Shown here: piece after piece, positions 47,967 to 58,174 of the stretch | How positions within the stretch are numbered: position 1 is the stretch's first letter | Layout of the letters: each line of letters opens with the position of its first letter | Position numbers and translations under genes: made by a program | Notes under the pieces: generated by a model | Databases searched by the model: none | The model's input: only the letters and a program-made list of their open reading frames with translations | Told to the model about the DNA's origin: nothing | From: Leptolyngbya sp. PCC 6406 | Lineage (GTDB): Bacteria > Cyanobacteriota > Cyanobacteriia > Phormidesmidales > Phormidesmidaceae | Reading direction: 5' to 3' | DNA: 64,000 nucleotides | Assembly: GCF_000332095.2 (NCBI RefSeq) | Contig: NZ_KI913949.1 | Coordinates: forward strand, 124,545 to 188,544

Positions 47967-49721
47967 CTATAGGCTAACCAAACCCAAAAGAGTAGAGATT
48001 TCTGTCACTAGTTTGCCAACATTAGCTACGAATTGAGTCGCTGGCTCTACCGACGCAATCGTGCCCCTAATCAACTTAACGGCTCTTTTTGCCAGTCTCT
48101 TACGATTATCATCTTCAGGCTGTTGCGCCACCTCTGCAAGCACCTCAACCTGTTCTAATGCCTCCACCTTATCTTCCTGAGGCAACAAATCTTGTTCGTC
48201 CATTAACAGCTCTTGCAACTGTCTAAGCAGTTCTTTAACTTCTCCGCTATTGGTATTTGCATCATCCGGAATTTTGTTGATTGAATTAGCTACGTTGCTT
48301 GCAATAGCATCGATATTGACAACACTATTACTAATATTCCCAACACTAATATTTCTTTGAAACACTTGTTTGCCTCCACTATCAATCATAACATTCCCCT
48401 TTGTAGAACCTGTAGTAGTAACAACAGCGTTATCTCCAATGACTATAATATTGTTGCGACCATCATTTCCAGCAGCCTTTATTGATTCTACAGCCGATTC
48501 TTCTACCTCATTAAAATCCTCTCGATTTTTGTCACTAACTATTAAGACCTCTATTTTACTAGGTTGAAATAAGGTCTTGTCTAATTTCGTTCTACTAAAG
48601 GTAACATTTGTAAGGCTGGAATTCAAAAAACTGGTTTTAAAATTGCCTATAACTGCATCAAATACTGCTCTAACAGCCCCATATTTTTCCTGCTTTAGCC
48701 TTTTTCTTCTGGCAGTTTTAAATTGTTGAATAAACTGAGAAAATTTATCTACAAGAAAACCACTATCTTTCGTATGCAAATCACCTCGGAAAAGAGGGGA
48801 AAATTTTCCTTCATCCGCATATTCAAGAAAATCGCTTCCAACAAAATTTGCCGTTTGCTGTTTTTCTTTCCTTGCTTCAAGACCAAGAAAACTCCCTGAA
48901 ATAATCCATGCGATACTGAGGGCAAAAGTCAACAAGTGAGTCAGGGAAGATTCGTACTCGCTTTCGCCAGCCAAGATAAAGCCAAAAACAATACCCAAAC
49001 CTGCAAATCCATATATGACGAACTCTATGATCAACCCAAAAGCATTTTTGTTTCTACTGACCTTAAATGCAACTATTTCTCTGTTTATATAAATAGCCTG
49101 AGATTGCATTAAAAAAGACGAAAAAATACCAACAAAGCAAGACAGACTGATGAGTGAAATCGCAGCAAAGTTTGCTAAATCATCAGGAAAAAATATCTGG
49201 ATGCAGAAATTTGCGAAAACCACAAATAATAGGAAACCCAAGAAGTGTTTTCCCAAACCCCAAATAAAAGACCAGAAAATTGAAAATATCAGCAGTAAAA
49301 TGAAGCACACAATGATTACTATTGCAGCCGGTGAACCTAGTTCATGATTCAATGAGTCAATAGCGATAAAAATAAAATAAGCCGTGCAATAGGTTCCAAT
49401 CATTCCTGAGACAGCAGCAAGAAAAAAAGCCAGAATTCTTAGCCATATTGATGTTATATTGGTAATACCTGTCTCACAATCATTCATATTTACATTGAAT
49501 AATTGTGTGTCTTTGAAGCTAGCGCCCTGAAGCTTTGAACCTGAAAAGTCTACGTCTCTTATCTCTAAACTATCAAAACTAAACCCTCTCCAATCCTCTC
49601 TATAAAAGTTTACTCTTTCATCTGATATGAGCGCCTCTTTACTAAGGTGAGGACTTTCAACGCCTGTTAGTTTGCCATCGGCAACTAAATCCCAAATCTT
49701 TTTTTCTTTTGGCTTACTCAT
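47967..49721 (-). CDS. Pentapeptide-repeat membrane protein with C-terminal helical module
   Basis: A 584-residue protein in four parts. First, short pentapeptide-like stretches (~38-85: WRGFSFDSLEIRDVDFSGSK). Second, six hydrophobic helices (~90-285). Third, a cytosolic stretch with more pentapeptides (FLNSSLTNVTFSRTKLDKTL) and a repetitive beta segment (NNIIVIGDNAVVTTTGSTKG...RNISVGNISNSVVNIDAIAS). Fourth, a helical C-terminal domain (~475-584: VKELLRQLQELLMDEQDLLP, KVEALEQVEVLAEVAQQPED, RAVKLIRGTI...STLLGL). The last module is common at the ends of cyanobacterial signalling proteins and looks like an adaptor or effector-associated domain. 35 bp downstream of the HEAT gene, same strand. Confidence 0.75.
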   Translation of the reverse strand: MSKPKEKKIWDLVADGKLTGVESPHLSKEALISDERVNFYREDWRGFSFDSLEIRDVDFSGSKLQGASFKDTQLFNVNMNDCETGITNITSIWLRILAFFLAAVSGMIGTYCTAYFIFIAIDSLNHELGSPAAIVIIVCFILLLIFSIFWSFIWGLGKHFLGFLLFVVFANFCIQIFFPDDLANFAAISLISLSCFVGIFSSFLMQSQAIYINREIVAFKVSRNKNAFGLIIEFVIYGFAGLGIVFGFILAGESEYESSLTHLLTFALSIAWIISGSFLGLEARKEKQQTANFVGSDFLEYADEGKFSPLFRGDLHTKDSGFLVDKFSQFIQQFKTARRKRLKQEKYGAVRAVFDAVIGNFKTSFLNSSLTNVTFSRTKLDKTLFQPSKIEVLIVSDKNREDFNEVEESAVESIKAAGNDGRNNIIVIGDNAVVTTTGSTKGNVMIDSGGKQVFQRNISVGNISNSVVNIDAIASNVANSINKIPDDANTNSGEVKELLRQLQELLMDEQDLLPQEDKVEALEQVEVLAEVAQQPEDDNRKRLAKRAVKLIRGTIASVEPATQFVANVGKLVTEISTLLGLVSL

Positions 49722-49756: not shown

Positions 49757-52700
49757 TTAAGAGCACTGAAGAATTCGTCTAATAAGTCGGAAGCGACATC
49801 CCCGACTTTGACCTCTTCTGCTGTTGATATCTCTGACTGCGGCGTTTGAGGCTGAGTTTGAAACTCGATCATCCAGAGTGGAAAGGAGAATGATAGTGCT
49901 CAAGTTTTGATCTAAGTCAGCAATTAAACGAGCGCTACGCAATGAAACGAGTCCTTCAGCACTGCCAAACCCCGTGAGAGCATAAGGAGCATTTGAATTT
50001 CCACTTGCGTCTTGTAATGCTTGAAGATTCTCTAGGCTATTTCTAAAAGCATCAGTGAATAAATCTGGAGTAAGTTGCTCAATTAAACATTTCTCATCAC
50101 CTTCAACTGACCAAGCAGATGGTTGAAGAAGACGACATAATCCATTGCCTGCCGCTAGGCGCAATTCCGCATATTCATTTTCCTGCCAAAAAACAGATGA
50201 GAGAGCATTCTTGATTATTTCAAGATCCTGAGTCTGTATATTTTGAATATTACGTTCCGATATCCCACTCAGGCTGAGAATAGCACTAAGGCGTAGGGCA
50301 ACATTGCTGTCCTGGGTTGCGTTCGCCAGTTGGGTCACCAACAAAGAGTTCCAAACAGGAATACTGCTAGCATAGGAGGCCGCAACTGCTCGCACATTCA
50401 CTGGCAAGTTCTCTCGTAAGCTAGCTCCATAGAGGTTAGCAACGTTGATTTCAGGAGATTGCCGTTGACCAATTACATATAGTGCGAGAGCAGCTAAATC
50501 ATTTAAATGACTTGCACTTTCACTGTTGTTGGTATTAGAACTAGCTGACAGTAGACGATTGTATAGCTCAATCAGCTGCGTAGTCACTGCATGGCGATTA
50601 ATGCTGTCACTCAAGACTGACTCATCAAGGCCAATTTGCGCGATCGCGTAGCTAGCAGCCACAAAAACTGGAGCTTTAGCCAATACAGTACGTTCATCCA
50701 CAGAAACGATCAAGTTGTAAAGCAGTGGCAGTGCCTCTCTTCCAATTTCTGGATTACTCTGTCCAAGTCTCCCTAGGGCATAAGCGGCAGCTTCCTGAAT
50801 CTCAAGTCCATCATCAAATTGACCTTGTACACCAGAGGTTAGGATACTTGTCAGTAGAGTAACTACGCGACGATCAGTAATACGCAGTTCACCTAATATA
50901 TAGATGGTGCGCGATCGCAGTAATGCCGAAATAGTGGTTTGACTAGCAATATTGACTAAGTCGTTGACAATTTCTGACTGTTGTAAAGCACCGGGCCAAC
51001 TGGATTCATTTATTTGACCAAGTTGCCAGATCAGTTCAATTGCCTGCAAGGCGACCTGCTCATTGTTGCTATTAAGCTGCTGGCGGATGCTAGGCATTAC
51101 CAAGCTAGGAGTATAGCTTGCAAAAGCATCAACTGTCGCTGCCACAACCCTTGAATCAGTTCCATTGAGTTGATCAAATAAAATAGCAGTATCTTGATTG
51201 CGATCGTAAATTCCTAAGAATCCCATCGCTTGAATGGCACTGGCTTGGATCAGTGGGCTGGTGCGTGCGGTGGGAGCATTAGTCGGTAGCTGGATTAGCT
51301 CTCGCAGAAATCTAGACACATTAGCAAACTCACCAATGCGGGAGTTGAAGTTGGGAGACCATGTTGAAGTCAGGAGGTGAATTGCACCAAAGCAGAGACG
51401 CTCTTGGGTCAAGAGATTGGCTTCAGGAGACAGACACTCTCCATAAACCCCAGAACCGGAGGTGAAACCTAAGTTGCGAATAATATTGCGACGAGCGCTG
51501 AGTTCAAGGGTTGAAAAGGCTTGAGGCTCCAAGTTAGTTAGTACGGTCAAGACCTGGTTGCGAAATTCCCTCGCAGATTCAAAGCGACTCAAAGAAGTGA
51601 CGGAGTAGTTGGTTGAGTTATTTGCCTCCTCAGGATCTAGAGGAGGGTTCAGCATCGGTGCCAAGAACTCGTGAATAATGATATTCAGCTTTTGCTGTCG
51701 TGGATCATTTTCCAGATCACTGGGCTGGAGTTTTGCGTCACTAATATCTTGTTGCAGATCAGCATAAAGCTTCTGAGCCGTTGCTTCAATGTATTGCAAT
51801 TTCAGAGATCGCCGCTGTATGAAATCAGCCCTTTGCGCTGGATTAGCAATATTACCCACCCAGACATCACGAATTCTAGGAGAATCACCACACTTTTGAG
51901 ATAGAGTTCCTAGAGAATCAAATGCTAGGGCACAGAGGGCATCGTACTGCTCCGGAGCTTCTGCGATCGCCAACTCCCCGATAGCTTCGATGGCAGGATT
52001 CTGCATAGCCCGCTTCATTTGCTGATATTCCCTTGGTTCTAACCCCCATCGAACGGCCTGAAATGTCTCGGTCGCCTGATCTGATTGACCGTGAACAGTT
52101 TCAGGTAATCGATTAACATCCCCTTGTCGCAAGATGGGACAGCTCTCATACTCATTCGGCTGGATATTTATATCATCGATCAGCAGTGGCAAGAATCGCT
52201 CTCCATTTGCAATATCGACCAGGCAACGAACTACCCTAGGAAGCTCAGCATGGGGTTGAGGTAACCCATTTGCAGATGCCAGGGGTTTAATTTGGCCAAG
52301 CGCAGCGATCGCCCCCGTTCTCAACAGCGTCAACTGCTCTAACAAAGGTACAATCGGCTCTGAGGGTGTTGCGTCAGGTGCGGTAACTTGAGGGATACAC
52401 AAGTTACCGAAATAACTTCTATTTTCTTCAGAACTTCGATTTTCTCTAACAAGCGGCTGTGGATAAATGTAGAGATAGTTCAGCAGTTGATTAATAACAT
52501 ATATATCCCTTATTTCAGTATTTGCTAAAGCATAGGCTGCACCAATACAGGAGTTAATCGAATCAAAGGAGCCTGCCAACACATGCTGTATATCAGCAGT
52601 AATTTCGTTAATAGATTCGTTATCATTGCTGCTTTTAGGATCATTACTGCTGCTGCTTTCAGTATTATTGCTACTTTCAGCGACGCTAGTAGTCGCTAGT

Positions 52701-55297
52701 TGCGCCAAAGTAGGCAGGGCATCTTGCACCAACAAGCGACGCAATCGACTCCCTGAATTGTTGCTAGTTTCCAACGCCTGAGGCGATATTCCAATCAATT
52801 CTACTGCACCCAGTACAGCCGCCCGAGTGGTGGAATTTTGCAAGCAGATACGATCCCGATTATCAGCATTGGCTTCGTAGGCGCAGTCTCGCTCCCGCTG
52901 CTCAGGATAAGCCGAACCTCGCTCAGGAAACTCGACCGCAGCAATGAGTTCATCAATGAGACGTTGCTGCCTGGGATGAATACGTCCCAAAACATAGCGC
53001 ACAATACTGTCGCGGACATCATCTTCACGATATCGATTAGCAAGCGCTATCTGCTCCGCCACTGATGGCCTCCGAAAGCGCGGTTGCAGAGCCCGTTCAG
53101 CCAGCAAATCACGTCCTTGTAAAACCCTTAAGAGATAGCGAACGGTCTTGATATCATCCTCGTTGATCTCAACCCCTGAACTCTGGCTGATACCCACCTG
53201 CCCTAAAACATAGGCTGATGCAATCGCCGAGCGATCGCTACCCCTGTCAGGCAATTCATAAGCACACTGACTGCTGTAGTCATCAAAGTCTTCGATCAAA
53301 AATTGATAACGAGGAGCTAGGTCTACTCCATTGGGCCAGATTGTTAGTCGTGTCGGGGAAAGCAGCGCTAACATACAGACTCTTAATTCCGTAACTAGAG
53401 CATTAGTGGGTTCCTGAGCCGGAGCTGAGCTTGTCAAAGCAGCATTCGAGTTCGATCGCTGATATCGACTTTCAAGGGCAGCACCATAACGACTCAAGCC
53501 ATAGGCAGATAGAGCAATGACTCGCTCGTTAGAATCATTGAGAGATAATGCTAAAACACTGAGTACATTAATCTGTTTTCCCGCTTCATCATCTGGGCTA
53601 CCCGTGCAAAGTTGGTCAAGACCAGGATCTTCTCTTTCAAAAATGGTATCTGCTGGCGAGTTATACCAGTAAGGCTTTAACCTAGTTTGCACCAATAAAT
53701 TTGGCCAATAAGGGGCAAGCTGCCCTAGAGCATAGGCTGCACTCCGTCGAATCTCTGCATCTCTAGAGCAGAGAAGATTGTGGCCTAAAAAGCGGACGAT
53801 CACTGCTTCAGGCGGCTCGGCTTCCGTTTCTGCATTTGGTTCAGGCAGTTGGCGATAACTCACGGCCCCTAAAGCTTCTATGGTTCTCTTTCGGAGAGTA
53901 GGATCACCGGAACCAGACAAATAAGCAATTGCCTGATAGATCTGCTGAAAATTACGTCTATAGACCTGATCGAAAGCAATCTCTGCCCGTTGCTGGATGT
54001 CTATCTGGCTCGATAGTCCGCTCTGCAATAGACTCAACAGATTCATAGACGTTGAGAAGCTAGTGCCTGGTGGTGGAGTGCTTTGGTAGAAAATAGAATT
54101 AGTTACCGTTGGATCAGGAGTCACCGCTAGCTGCAAAGGAGACAAGGGGGTCGTGATCGGAGGTAGCTGCTGGGTGCGGTAGTCAGCGATACGACTGGCA
54201 ATTTCTAATGCACTGACTCGATGGGGCAGAGGCTCTGCGGTGTCTTCTGCTATTTCGCGGAGTTGCTGCTGCACAGAGCCACCAAAAGTCCCATGAAAGC
54301 CTAAGCGTTCTAGACTAGCGATCGCTGCGGCCTGTACTAAGGTGGTTTCCTGAGGATTTGCCGCTACCCGGTTAAGAAGTTGCACATACTTGTCGGGTTG
54401 GACTGCTGTGCTAATGAACAGAAACGCTGATAGCGTTTCTACTTGGGCAACCCGTAGGGCTTCCTCTTGGCGGCTAAGGGGTTCCTCCTCTTGGCGACTA
54501 AGGGGTTCCTCCTCAGTGCGAAGAGAGTGTTCCAAGGAGTCCATCAGCAACTCAATAATCCCCTCACTGGTACTGGCATTGAGGGTCGCCATAGCAGATG
54601 TGAAAGCAGGCATGGCCTGCAATTTATAACCGATGTCCCTAAGCGCCTCCCATCCAGCAAGTGAACTAGTCAGAGACAAGTGGGAATTGTCCGCTGTGCT
54701 GCTTGCCAGACTTAACAACGCTTCAATTACCGTAAGAATGCCTTCGGTCCTGCCGGGTTCAGTAGATGACTCATCGCTACGGATGTCATATACGGCCAGT
54801 GACCTTACTGCGATCACAGCAGCATGACGTACCGCAGCCTGATCTGAACCCAAGAGAGGTAAGACTGCGTTCAGCAATGTAGGAATCTCAGCCCTTAGCA
54901 AGGGATCTTCGTGATCCCTTGCTAACAGCGTAATTAGACTGTGGAGGACAGCAAGATGAGAGGTCGTAATCCGGGAATCGGTACCTCGGCGCGCCAGTAT
55001 GATGACCAAATCTGCTATCAACTCTCCTGTAACGTCACAGGCTGAAACCTGCCGTACAGAAACGTTGAGCGGGGCTCCATCGATAAGGGTGGCCACTCCT
55101 GTGCAGCTAGTAGCTTGAGCCAAACGAGGATCAAGGCTTATAGGCAATGACAGACCTAAAGTTGCCATTGCCAACTCTGCTGACAACAAAGGCAGCAACC
55201 CCAAAAACAAAATAGATGCTTTAGCGACCTGTGGCATTACCCTGATCCAGAAATTGTTACCTTTGGCATAAGATGCAATTGCCCAAACATGATGCAC
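49757..55297 (-). CDS. Giant exported HEAT-repeat protein
   Basis: An 1846-residue protein. An N-terminal signal is visible: VAKASILFLGLLPLLSAELA (~24-43), cleavable after AMA or LAQA. Almost all the rest is HEAT/PBS-like helical pairs, for example AAVRHAAVIAVRSLAVYD, EIRRSAAYALGQLAPYWP, EIQEAAAYALGRLGQSNP, ALRLSAILSLSGISERNI. A Ser/Asn-rich linker (SSNNTESSSSNDPKSSNDNE) lies near 870-900, and an EEPLSRQE duplication near 260. The Met at 55237 gives a tighter signal peptide than ATG 55297. Ends in a basic, Cys-containing tail (RGCRFRLIRRILQCS). Role probably scaffold or protease substrate outside the cytosol. Operon with the pentapeptide gene. Confidence 0.8.
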   Translation of the reverse strand: MHHVWAIASYAKGNNFWIRVMPQVAKASILFLGLLPLLSAELAMATLGLSLPISLDPRLAQATSCTGVATLIDGAPLNVSVRQVSACDVTGELIADLVIILARRGTDSRITTSHLAVLHSLITLLARDHEDPLLRAEIPTLLNAVLPLLGSDQAAVRHAAVIAVRSLAVYDIRSDESSTEPGRTEGILTVIEALLSLASSTADNSHLSLTSSLAGWEALRDIGYKLQAMPAFTSAMATLNASTSEGIIELLMDSLEHSLRTEEEPLSRQEEEPLSRQEEALRVAQVETLSAFLFISTAVQPDKYVQLLNRVAANPQETTLVQAAAIASLERLGFHGTFGGSVQQQLREIAEDTAEPLPHRVSALEIASRIADYRTQQLPPITTPLSPLQLAVTPDPTVTNSIFYQSTPPPGTSFSTSMNLLSLLQSGLSSQIDIQQRAEIAFDQVYRRNFQQIYQAIAYLSGSGDPTLRKRTIEALGAVSYRQLPEPNAETEAEPPEAVIVRFLGHNLLCSRDAEIRRSAAYALGQLAPYWPNLLVQTRLKPYWYNSPADTIFEREDPGLDQLCTGSPDDEAGKQINVLSVLALSLNDSNERVIALSAYGLSRYGAALESRYQRSNSNAALTSSAPAQEPTNALVTELRVCMLALLSPTRLTIWPNGVDLAPRYQFLIEDFDDYSSQCAYELPDRGSDRSAIASAYVLGQVGISQSSGVEINEDDIKTVRYLLRVLQGRDLLAERALQPRFRRPSVAEQIALANRYREDDVRDSIVRYVLGRIHPRQQRLIDELIAAVEFPERGSAYPEQRERDCAYEANADNRDRICLQNSTTRAAVLGAVELIGISPQALETSNNSGSRLRRLLVQDALPTLAQLATTSVAESSNNTESSSSNDPKSSNDNESINEITADIQHVLAGSFDSINSCIGAAYALANTEIRDIYVINQLLNYLYIYPQPLVRENRSSEENRSYFGNLCIPQVTAPDATPSEPIVPLLEQLTLLRTGAIAALGQIKPLASANGLPQPHAELPRVVRCLVDIANGERFLPLLIDDINIQPNEYESCPILRQGDVNRLPETVHGQSDQATETFQAVRWGLEPREYQQMKRAMQNPAIEAIGELAIAEAPEQYDALCALAFDSLGTLSQKCGDSPRIRDVWVGNIANPAQRADFIQRRSLKLQYIEATAQKLYADLQQDISDAKLQPSDLENDPRQQKLNIIIHEFLAPMLNPPLDPEEANNSTNYSVTSLSRFESAREFRNQVLTVLTNLEPQAFSTLELSARRNIIRNLGFTSGSGVYGECLSPEANLLTQERLCFGAIHLLTSTWSPNFNSRIGEFANVSRFLRELIQLPTNAPTARTSPLIQASAIQAMGFLGIYDRNQDTAILFDQLNGTDSRVVAATVDAFASYTPSLVMPSIRQQLNSNNEQVALQAIELIWQLGQINESSWPGALQQSEIVNDLVNIASQTTISALLRSRTIYILGELRITDRRVVTLLTSILTSGVQGQFDDGLEIQEAAAYALGRLGQSNPEIGREALPLLYNLIVSVDERTVLAKAPVFVAASYAIAQIGLDESVLSDSINRHAVTTQLIELYNRLLSASSNTNNSESASHLNDLAALALYVIGQRQSPEINVANLYGASLRENLPVNVRAVAASYASSIPVWNSLLVTQLANATQDSNVALRLSAILSLSGISERNIQNIQTQDLEIIKNALSSVFWQENEYAELRLAAGNGLCRLLQPSAWSVEGDEKCLIEQLTPDLFTDAFRNSLENLQALQDASGNSNAPYALTGFGSAEGLVSLRSARLIADLDQNLSTIILLSTLDDRVSNSASNAAVRDINSRRGQSRGCRFRLIRRILQCS

Positions 55298-55768
55298 AAG
55301 TAGATAAACCTTGGTGGATATTCAAGTGATCCACCCTAGGTAAAACTTAGGGCTTAACTAAACTTGGCGTTTAGAAAGTCAATCTTAAGGATAGAAAAAG
55401 TGCTACGTTCGCAACAGCAACATGCCTATCAATATTCTGCGGCCAACCAATACATCCGTGCAAGAAGTTTTTTGAAGCCACCAAGAAACACGTGAACATC
55501 ATGCCTAGAATCATCAAGCTGCCCAAACAAGCAGGAAAATGCATCCCAAGGCACCATTTTGATCGCGAATTCATGATAATCGGATGAGGGATCGCAGGAA
55601 AGTAGCATCCTCCTTATAGATATAATCCTTAAATAATGAGTATCTATGCTTGTGAGTCATTCCTCTGTAAGATTCAGATTTTCTTTGCTTTGCCAGAGGT
55701 GTTAGGGGATCTTTTGTTATTCTCCGACAGGTTTTTATTGAACTTTTGTTAATCTCAGGAGTGATTCC
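55298..55768. promoter_or_regulatory. Divergent promoter region, HEAT and CHAT genes
   Basis: 470 bp of AT-rich DNA between outward-facing genes. AGGAG precedes the CHAT start by 8 nt. Short antisense ORFs here have no family resemblance. Sharing one regulatory region suggests co-expression of both sides of the island. Confidence 0.55.
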
Positions 55769-58174
55769 ATGAAGCATTCAGGACGCAACTACAACTCTCG
55801 CCACGTGAGCGCCAGCTCAAAACATAGCTTTCAACGCCACTCCTCCTCTGCCAAATCAATTTTAATTGCTTTGGTGCTCGTGAGCGGCACACGCCTACTG
55901 GATAAGTCAGCCCTGGCTACTACGGTAAGACTAGTGCCCGCTACAGCATTGGAGCAATCAGGGTATGTAAGGTCTGACTGTGAAGCACTTGAACCACAGT
56001 CAGGGTCAGAGACAGGTGCCCAAGTGGTTTTGAGTTACTGCATTCAAGGCTCTAGTTTGTACGGCTCAACTCATGGGGAGGAAATTGGTTTTGAGGAAGC
56101 AGTACATAGGGTTCTAGCCTCGTATCAGGGGCGCTCTGTACGCCGTCCAGAACTTGCAGCAATTCGAGATGAAATCACCCTGATTTACTTGCAACAGGGG
56201 TTCCTCACCTCATGGGCTGAGAGTGTCACGATTCAGCCCGATGGCACCTTAGTTGTGTCAGTGGTTGAAGGGTTTATCCAAACTGTTTGCGCCTTAGGAG
56301 CAGCCAATAGCTGTCGTCCTTTTGAGGGTACACCCTATGCCAGGTATGTCTCGGCTTACTTGGATGACATTATCAAACAACGTCCCATCAATATCAAGGA
56401 GCTGGATCGCCGATTGCGGCGACTGGCTTCAGATGAACGGTTCCAGACTGAAAAGGCTCTCTTCCGCCTACAAATTCCTAGCGAGAGCTTTTTTGATCGA
56501 CTTGTGACTGATCAGCCAACAGAAGATGGAACTGAAGCTCCGGTAGCACCAGAGCTTCAGTGGGAGGAACTTCGACGGCAATTAGAAAACTACCGTACAT
56601 TCGTGCCTGAACCCGGTGCCAGCATCCTGGAAATTGATTTGCAGTTTCGACCTGAAGTCGAAGATAGTGAGGCGAGATCAAATAACGCTCCTTTTGTGCC
56701 CACTAACCGGGTTCTAGAGGAACGGAGGAGAGATGCTTTTCGGGAATACTTCGGCAGTGATGTACGTCGATCCGTAGTGGATCCACTACAGGATCCGCTA
56801 CGGGATCCTGTAGTGGATCCTAGTTTAATTCGGTATAGTCTCCATAGTCTGGAAATGCAGGAGCCTAGCATTCGTGCAGCGGTTGTATACATTGCTTCCG
56901 AGGGCGATCGTGTCTTTATCAGCATTGAAACCTCTCAAAGTCCCACGGTTGAAATAGAAACAATTACTCGCTTTGAAGTGAATATTGATGACGAGGAATT
57001 TCAGAGACAAACCATTGAGCTAGATGGAGGTAGTTCAGACTCTGAGGATAGAACTAGTAATCCCTTGGCTGAAATTTTGGAATTTTTTGGACTTCGCCAA
57101 GGAAATAGGGTTACACGAGATGAATTGGCTCTTGAAGTAAGAAATCTATGGAGTGAAATTCAAAATCCTCGTTCTGAAAGTTATCTTCGATATTCTGCTG
57201 AGTTGTATAGCTTACTGATTCGTCCTGTAGAAGAAGTTTTGAAGGATCAGGGCATAGAAGTTAATACACTACTTTTCGTCATGGAAAACGGGCTGGGATT
57301 ACTGCCTGTAGCAGCCCTATATGATGCTGAAAGCGGCCAGTTCTTAGCGGAAAAATATAAGATTGGTATTATCCCTAATTTTAGCTCTCTAGATTTACGA
57401 CCTTCGCACCTAGAAAGGGCAGACATTCTAGCAATGGGCGCTTCAGAATTTCAGGATTCTAACCTCTATCCTCCGCTGAATGCTGTCCCTTTAGAGCTAG
57501 AGATGATTAAGCGTATATGGCCAGATGATCGAACTGTTACTGATAGCCTTAACAGTCAATTTACCTTGGAAAGGTTGCGTAATGCTCGTCGAAACTATCC
57601 ATACCAAATTGTTCACTTGGCTACCCATGCCAGCTTTCTACCGGGAAAACCTGGAGATTCCAATATTCAACTCTGGGACACTTCGCTGCCGCTCCAAGAA
57701 CGCCAAATTGCGAGTCTAAATTGGAACCAACCCCCTTTAGAGCTTCTGGTACTCAGTGCTTGTCAAACTGCCTTAGGGGATGAATCAGCGGAGTTGGGGT
57801 TCGCTGGTCTTTCCCTCCAATCCAATGTGAAATCTACCCTAGCTAGTCTCTGGTATGTAAGTGATCTAGCATCACTCATTTACATGATGGAATTTTACCG
57901 TAGCTTGTCTGCAGGGGTAACAAAAGTAGAAGCTGTGCAAACCGCACAATTAGCGATGCTGGATGATCAGCGATTGAGGCAGAATCTCCGAGAGCTACGG
58001 AGAGTAATTAACGAATTATTACTAGATGAGCCTCGACTTCGGCGTTTTACAGAAAGTGAATTGCAAGGCTTAAGACGCTTACAAGAGGCTGTTGGAAAGG
58101 AGCAGGAAGTAATTGAAAATTTCTCGCATCCTTTCTACTGGTCTTCTTATACTTTGGTAGGGAGTCCATGGTAA
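55769..58174 (+). CDS. Exported CHAT-domain (caspase-like) protease with POTRA-like domain
   Basis: An 801-residue protein. Signal peptide ~28-51 (SILIALVLVSGTRLLDKSAL, then A|TT). About 95-200 resembles a ShlB/FhaC-type POTRA: LAAIRDEITLIYLQQGFLTS, TIQPDGTLVVSVVEGFIQTV, INIKELDRRLRRLASDERFQ. A variable acidic part (~205-400) includes a DP-repeat. CHAT domain ~430-801: catalytic His620 in IVHLATHASF, catalytic Cys665 in LLVLSACQTALGDESAELGF, and the terminal HPFYWSSYTLVGSPW. CHAT proteases are caspase/separase relatives; export with a POTRA is unusual. No TPRs are present. Start ATG 55769 has a good AGGAG. Confidence 0.88.
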   Translation: MKHSGRNYNSRHVSASSKHSFQRHSSSAKSILIALVLVSGTRLLDKSALATTVRLVPATALEQSGYVRSDCEALEPQSGSETGAQVVLSYCIQGSSLYGSTHGEEIGFEEAVHRVLASYQGRSVRRPELAAIRDEITLIYLQQGFLTSWAESVTIQPDGTLVVSVVEGFIQTVCALGAANSCRPFEGTPYARYVSAYLDDIIKQRPINIKELDRRLRRLASDERFQTEKALFRLQIPSESFFDRLVTDQPTEDGTEAPVAPELQWEELRRQLENYRTFVPEPGASILEIDLQFRPEVEDSEARSNNAPFVPTNRVLEERRRDAFREYFGSDVRRSVVDPLQDPLRDPVVDPSLIRYSLHSLEMQEPSIRAAVVYIASEGDRVFISIETSQSPTVEIETITRFEVNIDDEEFQRQTIELDGGSSDSEDRTSNPLAEILEFFGLRQGNRVTRDELALEVRNLWSEIQNPRSESYLRYSAELYSLLIRPVEEVLKDQGIEVNTLLFVMENGLGLLPVAALYDAESGQFLAEKYKIGIIPNFSSLDLRPSHLERADILAMGASEFQDSNLYPPLNAVPLELEMIKRIWPDDRTVTDSLNSQFTLERLRNARRNYPYQIVHLATHASFLPGKPGDSNIQLWDTSLPLQERQIASLNWNQPPLELLVLSACQTALGDESAELGFAGLSLQSNVKSTLASLWYVSDLASLIYMMEFYRSLSAGVTKVEAVQTAQLAMLDDQRLRQNLRELRRVINELLLDEPRLRRFTESELQGLRRLQEAVGKEQEVIENFSHPFYWSSYTLVGSPW
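56779..56820. repeat. Perfect 18-bp hairpin inside the CHAT gene
   Basis: GGATCCACTACAGGATCC (56779-56796) and its complement (56803-56820) around GCTACG, within a tandem GGATCC-rich stretch encoding VVDPLQDPLRDPVVDP. May be an inserted palindrome kept in frame. Confidence 0.85.

Follow-up and report, generated by a model that had tools for sequence, protein, structure and literature searches.

POTRA domains are known as the receptor part of outer-membrane barrels and, as a rule, belong to the same chain as the barrel. In two-partner secretion (TPS), the passenger TpsA has a TPS domain, which the POTRAs of the transporter TpsB recognise in extended form, probably via beta-augmentation (PMC5422565). 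A survey of the Omp85/TpsB superfamily describes ten subfamilies with their architectures, and its text holds no occurrence of 'peptidase' or 'fused' (PMC4104836). On the protease side, Craspase has a TPR-CHAT protein that is similar to separase and becomes active when the surroundings of its His-Cys dyad change conformation (PMC9729208). Our literature search found no paper that joins 'CHAT domain' with POTRA or two-partner secretion, and no paper on passengers that combine a TPS domain with CHAT. The parts of the protein described here are known already; this search turned up neither the POTRA-CHAT arrangement nor an account of its origin.

The window, a stretch of 64,000 nucleotides from Leptolyngbya sp. 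PCC 6406, carries a single gene for such a POTRA-CHAT protein. In origin and architecture it is very probably a collapsed two-partner-secretion cassette, because both halves of the fusion are closest to two genes of one locus. The TpsA-CHAT/TpsB pair (type Vb) of Adonisia turfae CCMR0081 and other cyanobacteria, which would be the source of both halves, shares locus and neighbours with the fusion. In contrast to this pair, the fusion is one gene without TPS domain, beta-helix part and barrel, and its order is POTRA then CHAT. With the TpsBs FhaC, HMW1B and CdiB it has an ShlB-type POTRA1, and probably POTRA2, in common; it lacks their 16-strand barrel and hence a translocation pore, and carries a protease instead. 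In type Vd PlpD, too, a passenger enzyme shares its chain with a POTRA-like domain, but PlpD keeps its barrel and has an N-terminal passenger, whereas no barrel is found by Pfam in the fusion and its passenger is C-terminal. TPR-CHAT (Csx29, Craspase) and eukaryotic separase share the caspase-like His-Cys dyad of CHAT and a solenoid partner. Their solenoid is present in cis, whereas a separate and probably exported HEAT protein is encoded next door in the fusion locus. The POTRAs occupy the place of the TPRs, and the setting is probably the envelope and not the cytoplasm.

Domain content of the fusion gene

The features of the gene are as follows, in positions of the window.

55769..58174, + strand: POTRA-CHAT fusion gene, 801 aa (ORF list, Pfam, RBS by eye)
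55769..55918, + strand: export signal-like region, aa 1-50 (hydropathy)
55979..56041, + strand: Cys pair C71/C91 ahead of POTRA1 (Cys positions)
56024..56293, + strand: POTRA1, aa 86-175 (Pfam PF08479, hhalign, fold match, blastp)
56324..56668, + strand: probable POTRA2, aa 186-300, end strand PGASILEID (TpsB collinearity; blastp cover to aa 237)
56480..56605, + strand: fusion-specific insert in POTRA2, aa ~238-279 (alignment, model secondary structure)
56669..56716, + strand: fusion junction, aa ~301-316 (blastp boundaries, alignment)
56714..57190, + strand: TpsA-derived pre-CHAT linker domain, aa 316-474 (blastp, 50% to Adonisia TpsA-CHAT)
56779..56820, + strand: in-frame 18-bp perfect inverted repeat of GGATCC units, adding about 12 aa, PLQDPLRDPVVD
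57188..58165, + strand: CHAT domain, aa 474-799 (Pfam PF12770, E 2e-57)
57626..57628, + strand: putative catalytic His620 (HLATH), invariant in 10 CHATs
57761..57763, + strand: putative catalytic Cys665 (LSAC), invariant in 10 CHATs

The reading frame starts with ATG, and AGGAG is read directly 7 nt upstream, at 55757-55761; a convergent MurJ-like gene follows downstream from 58428. By hydropathy, the first 50 residues consist of a basic n-region, the hydrophobic segment SILIALVLVSGT (30-41) and an A-x-A-like end, SALA before T, and one further hydrophobic peak coincides with the POTRA1 strands near aa 161. The cysteines C71 and C91 may form a disulfide. An equivalent pair, C59/C86, is read from the sequence of the second fusion described below, and a similar one from the Adonisia TpsB.

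The original prediction was made for aa 1-237. This interval covers the signal-like region, all of POTRA1 and the first half of POTRA2, whose last strand PGASILEIDL (near 282-291) lies beyond it, as does CHAT (57188-58165). It placed an ShlB/FhaC-type POTRA pattern in residues ~95-200, and its elements YLQQGFLTSWAE, DGTLVVSVVEGFI and PINIKELDRRLRRLASD are present, within residues 138-223. PF08479 (POTRA_2) matches aa 109-168 with E 4.9e-6 and 26.7 bits, above the curated Pfam cut-off of 24 bits, a value that holds for CHAT as well. In P0002, the independent homologue, the same family is found with E 6e-11 and 42.5 bits. When a profile of the two fusions is set against one of nine cyanobacterial TpsBs in hhalign, the probability is 99.1% and E 5e-19, and a profile search of the PDB retrieves CdiB 6wim (1.5e-5) and the cyanobacterial Omp85 2x8x (9.5e-4). 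From the P0002, profile-profile and PDB matches we conclude that the POTRA_2 match is not due to chance, and the assignment as ShlB-type POTRA is borne out.

The fold points the same way. An AF2 model of residues 71-324, built from a two-row alignment, is weak at pLDDT 45; its best Foldseek matches are the POTRA-bearing cyanobacterial Omp85, CdiB and BamA. The original prediction named an unrelated fold as its refutation, and rows 1-47 of the VIA-align search with this pLDDT-45 model are all POTRA domains (FhaC POTRA1, BamA, CdiB). FhaC 4qky aligns with Z 7.8 over model positions 14-98, corresponding to residues 84-168; a Z below 8 is not proof by itself, but all top rows agree, and they match the sequence evidence. 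The low-pLDDT model has the order alpha-alpha-beta-beta (H38-47, H56-72, E78-85, E90-97) with a first strand hinted at 16-19, at Z values of 5.3-7.9. POTRA1 is clearly an ShlB-type POTRA. A second POTRA at aa 186-300 is probable from its alignment with TpsB POTRA2, with which it is collinear in the motif PIN..L...LR.L and in the final PGASILEID strand; tested alone it gives a weak 11% in hhalign. The insert in POTRA2 is common to the fusions of the window and of G391, missing from the TpsBs and partly helical (H191-207 of the modelled construct). A full-length AF2 model from three rows is uninformative (pLDDT 41), and a POTRA-CHAT contact is not readable from the models because of their pLDDT of 45 and 41.

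PF12770 (CHAT) matches aa 474-799 with E 2e-57 and 195 bits, so that the caspase-like domain foreseen in the same protein is intact. Beyond POTRA_2 and CHAT the protein has no notable Pfam match: no ShlB/Omp85 barrel is found, in line with the prediction, and CHAT occupies the 3' end of the gene; TPS domain (PF05860) and any TPR family N-terminal to CHAT are missing as well. It is very unlikely that CHAT is inactive and the protein a scaffold or adhesin-like envelope component. We know of no CHAT of this subfamily that has been assayed, and a sequence-profile search for PDB relatives of the domain gave none at E 0.01, both of which count for that reading; against it, His620 and Cys665 are invariant together with their surroundings across the ten compared CHATs.

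Within the linker, the inverted repeat inserts PLQDPLRDPVVD, which is not in the three homologues, and no comparable second copy of 56779-56820 was found in the genome.

Probable parent cassette and second fusion

The same locus, with HEAT and pentapeptide neighbours, occurs in four genomes, two with separate CHAT and TpsB genes and two with a fusion. In Adonisia turfae CCMR0081 (L033), the pentapeptide membrane and HEAT genes lie on one strand and the CHAT gene diverges from them. Its product of 1230 aa has a TPS domain (1.8e-36), a long middle region and CHAT, and is a genuine TpsA; the gene is followed by that of a TpsB of 758 aa with POTRA and barrel. In the cassette of G400, the CHAT gene encodes 611 aa without TPS domain and is also followed by a TpsB gene. 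This TPS-less CHAT (L095 10285-12120) adjoins an intact TpsB.

Both halves of the fusion trace to this locus. In blastp, CHAT and linker match the Adonisia TpsA-CHAT with 8e-173 and the G400 CHAT with 7e-158, versus 3e-35 between the CHAT half and the one own-genome CHAT compared. The POTRA half matches the cassette TpsBs of Adonisia (9e-17) and G400 (1e-13), versus 2e-4 for the best of three own-genome TpsBs. Similarity to TpsB stops and similarity to TpsA-CHAT starts at the junction, where barrel and TPS/beta-helix part are missing. The CHAT, POTRA and HEAT trees all group the window with G391 and G400 with Adonisia, with supports of 99/99 for CHAT, 85/83 with 93/92 for POTRA and 100/100 for HEAT. 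G553, where TpsA-CHAT adjoins TpsB, is sister in the CHAT and POTRA trees. The view of a module borrowed from secretion machinery can be made specific: a single two-partner-secretion cassette supplied both parts, its TpsB the POTRAs and its TpsA the CHAT. The simplest account is that they were fused once, within that cassette. For the TpsBs and CHATs compared, blastp and tree do not favour an origin of POTRA or CHAT at a different locus of the own genome.

The gene order is TpsA-CHAT then TpsB in Adonisia, G553, G151 and G215. Since the loci run in this order, an arrangement of POTRA then CHAT needs a tandem-copy or inverted intermediate, and none was found among the surveyed loci. Tandem TpsA-CHATs do exist in L149 and probably in L141. 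A simple deletion in a locus with TpsB before TpsA was rejected, as the surveyed TpsA-CHAT loci with adjacent TpsB have the opposite order. CHAT passengers occur across several cyanobacterial families, some in tandem and some with TpsB directly downstream; in most of them a TPS domain can be recognised:

L141, 5190-9062: CHAT passenger
L143, 2-4015: CHAT passenger
L144, 4166-7849: CHAT passenger
L145, 496-5652: CHAT passenger
L146, 8053-13803: CHAT passenger
L147, 7829-12055: CHAT passenger
L148, 4521-8183: CHAT passenger
L149, 2325-9956: CHAT passenger

They are apparently exported CHAT proteases. Plasmid records label such TpsA-CHAT loci only as 'filamentous hemagglutinin N-terminal domain' or 'CHAT domain' proteins. 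By the Rosetta-stone argument, the POTRA-CHAT fusion leads one to expect that TpsB POTRAs and CHAT passenger are also in functional contact where the cassette is unfused.

The original prediction called for a survey of POTRA-CHAT fusions and their neighbours. A search of 65 genomes of the family brought up P0002, a second intact fusion of 846 aa in G391, another genus of the same family. It aligns collinearly with residues 8-801 of the window protein (42% identity). Leaving aside the short signal region, four-fold sites are randomised between the two genes (18-29% identical), while amino-acid identities are 41% (POTRA1), 36% (POTRA2), 52% (linker) and 63% (CHAT). The whole chain has therefore been kept by purifying selection.

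The second fusion and the selection on it exclude an assembly artefact and make plain decay unlikely. An erroneous joining of two genes in assembly or gene calling, whose probability we put close to nil, could appeal to the occurrence in only one genome of the genus, with three congeners (all incomplete) that have no match to the cassette profiles at this strength. It is refuted by P0002, a diverged and intact fusion that a different genus carries at this locus; in addition, the window is internal to a contig of 5.47 Mb, and the genome is 99.96% complete. It is unlikely, too, that the gene is the remnant of a decaying TPS locus in which CHAT is still useful, for example with the HEAT protein, and the POTRAs are a neutral export leader or spacer. 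The faster divergence of the POTRA half (36-41% vs 63% for CHAT) and the POTRA_2 score of 26.7 bits, barely over the cut-off, would fit such a remnant. Against it stand the identity of 36-41% that the POTRAs keep between genera despite randomised four-fold sites, the conserved core motifs TSWAE and DGTL..VVEG, and the extra POTRA2 insert common to both fusions.

Two fusions are known. No third was found in a draw of 386 genomes of the phylum with the N-terminal part as query, among 390 genomes of the class with the CHAT-linker profile, which a fusion with unrelated linker could escape, or among the reading frames of the loci examined.

Neighbouring genes and predicted working

Two genes on the other strand complete the cassette:

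49757..55297, - strand: HEAT-repeat protein, transcribed divergently from the fusion (Pfam; likely start ATG at 55237)
47967..49721, - strand: pentapeptide-repeat protein, third cassette gene, with hydrophobic, membrane-like segments (Pfam)

HEAT and pentapeptide neighbours accompany all four cassettes. The HEAT orthologue adjoins the CHAT gene in each of them, and none of the other genomes searched has it. Counting full-length matches for the CHAT-linker profile (A2), this profile and that of the HEAT protein hit the same four of 65 genomes of the order and the same four of 390 of the class. As HEAT and CHAT coincide exactly in these four genomes, the HEAT protein always accompanies the CHAT protein and is probably a working partner of it. 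All four HEAT proteins have signal-like N-termini. A similar pentapeptide gene lies beside the HEAT gene in all four cassettes, with varying sequence and orientation. In the G391 cassette, an ORF of 156 aa adjoining the pentapeptide gene (L094 10678-11148) has the motif NxYGDxAxIxxQYG in common with the pentapeptide C-terminus.

The fusion keeps the grip domains of the transporter and the protease without channel and export tag, which suggests that the protease stays inside the envelope. We consider the envelope location likely, and more narrowly the protein is probably periplasmic, as judged by the signal-like N-termini, the conserved Cys pair and the signal-like N-termini of the HEAT partners. 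It is distinctly unlikely that the fusion leaves the periplasm, its POTRAs docking in trans on another Omp85/TpsB barrel that exports or displays CHAT. Other TpsBs are kept in both fusion genomes, and the TPS-less CHAT of G400 adjoins a TpsB, so that a CHAT may use a barrel without TPS domain. Nevertheless, it is just the two genomes with a fusion that have lost the cognate barrel: G400 (58% identity, 8e-133) and Adonisia have it, and elsewhere in the genomes of the window (G000) and G391 only generic barrels were found (34-43%, best about 4e-54). Moreover, POTRAs normally act within the barrel protein, and the fusion has no TPS domain.

For the envelope protease, we propose that signal-like region, POTRA1 and POTRA2 of TpsB were joined to linker and CHAT of its own TpsA-CHAT passenger, with loss of the beta-barrel and the TPS/beta-helix part. 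The protein would be exported by Sec and, without barrel or TPS domain, would be retained in the envelope, either in soluble form or anchored by its signal, as a CHAT cysteine protease, its activity and partners being predicted from sequence. The POTRA pair may pack on linker and CHAT as an off state or feed extended substrate strands to the protease. The separately exported HEAT protein could provide an alpha-solenoid arm in trans, as regulator or substrate, and the pentapeptide membrane protein could anchor or signal. These specific roles of POTRAs and HEAT protein are tentative. It is conceivable, at a similar level, that the system is a self-contained envelope protease, with POTRAs re-purposed from docking to substrate presentation or autoinhibition under a dedicated exported HEAT solenoid, and would then be comparable to a separase split over two exported proteins. 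For the explanation as a whole, from collapsed cassette to envelope CHAT protease with POTRA and HEAT roles, our confidence is middling.

In this locus, POTRAs outlive their barrel, fused to their own former cargo. The fusion offers a natural experiment on POTRA function in the absence of a pore and, if the reading is true, a secretion pair could be converted to a resident enzyme through loss of channel and export tag.

The own genome holds a large CHAT repertoire of 26 matches. Its TPR-CHATs, e.g. L097 5375-7954 beside TpsA and TpsB genes, resemble the fusion in CHAT, signal-like N-terminus and proximity to TPS genes; they differ in having TPR for POTRA and in belonging to a separate CHAT clade of the tree. 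In L097 5375-16000, TpsA-like genes, a TpsB and the signal-like TPR-CHAT stand in a row on one strand.
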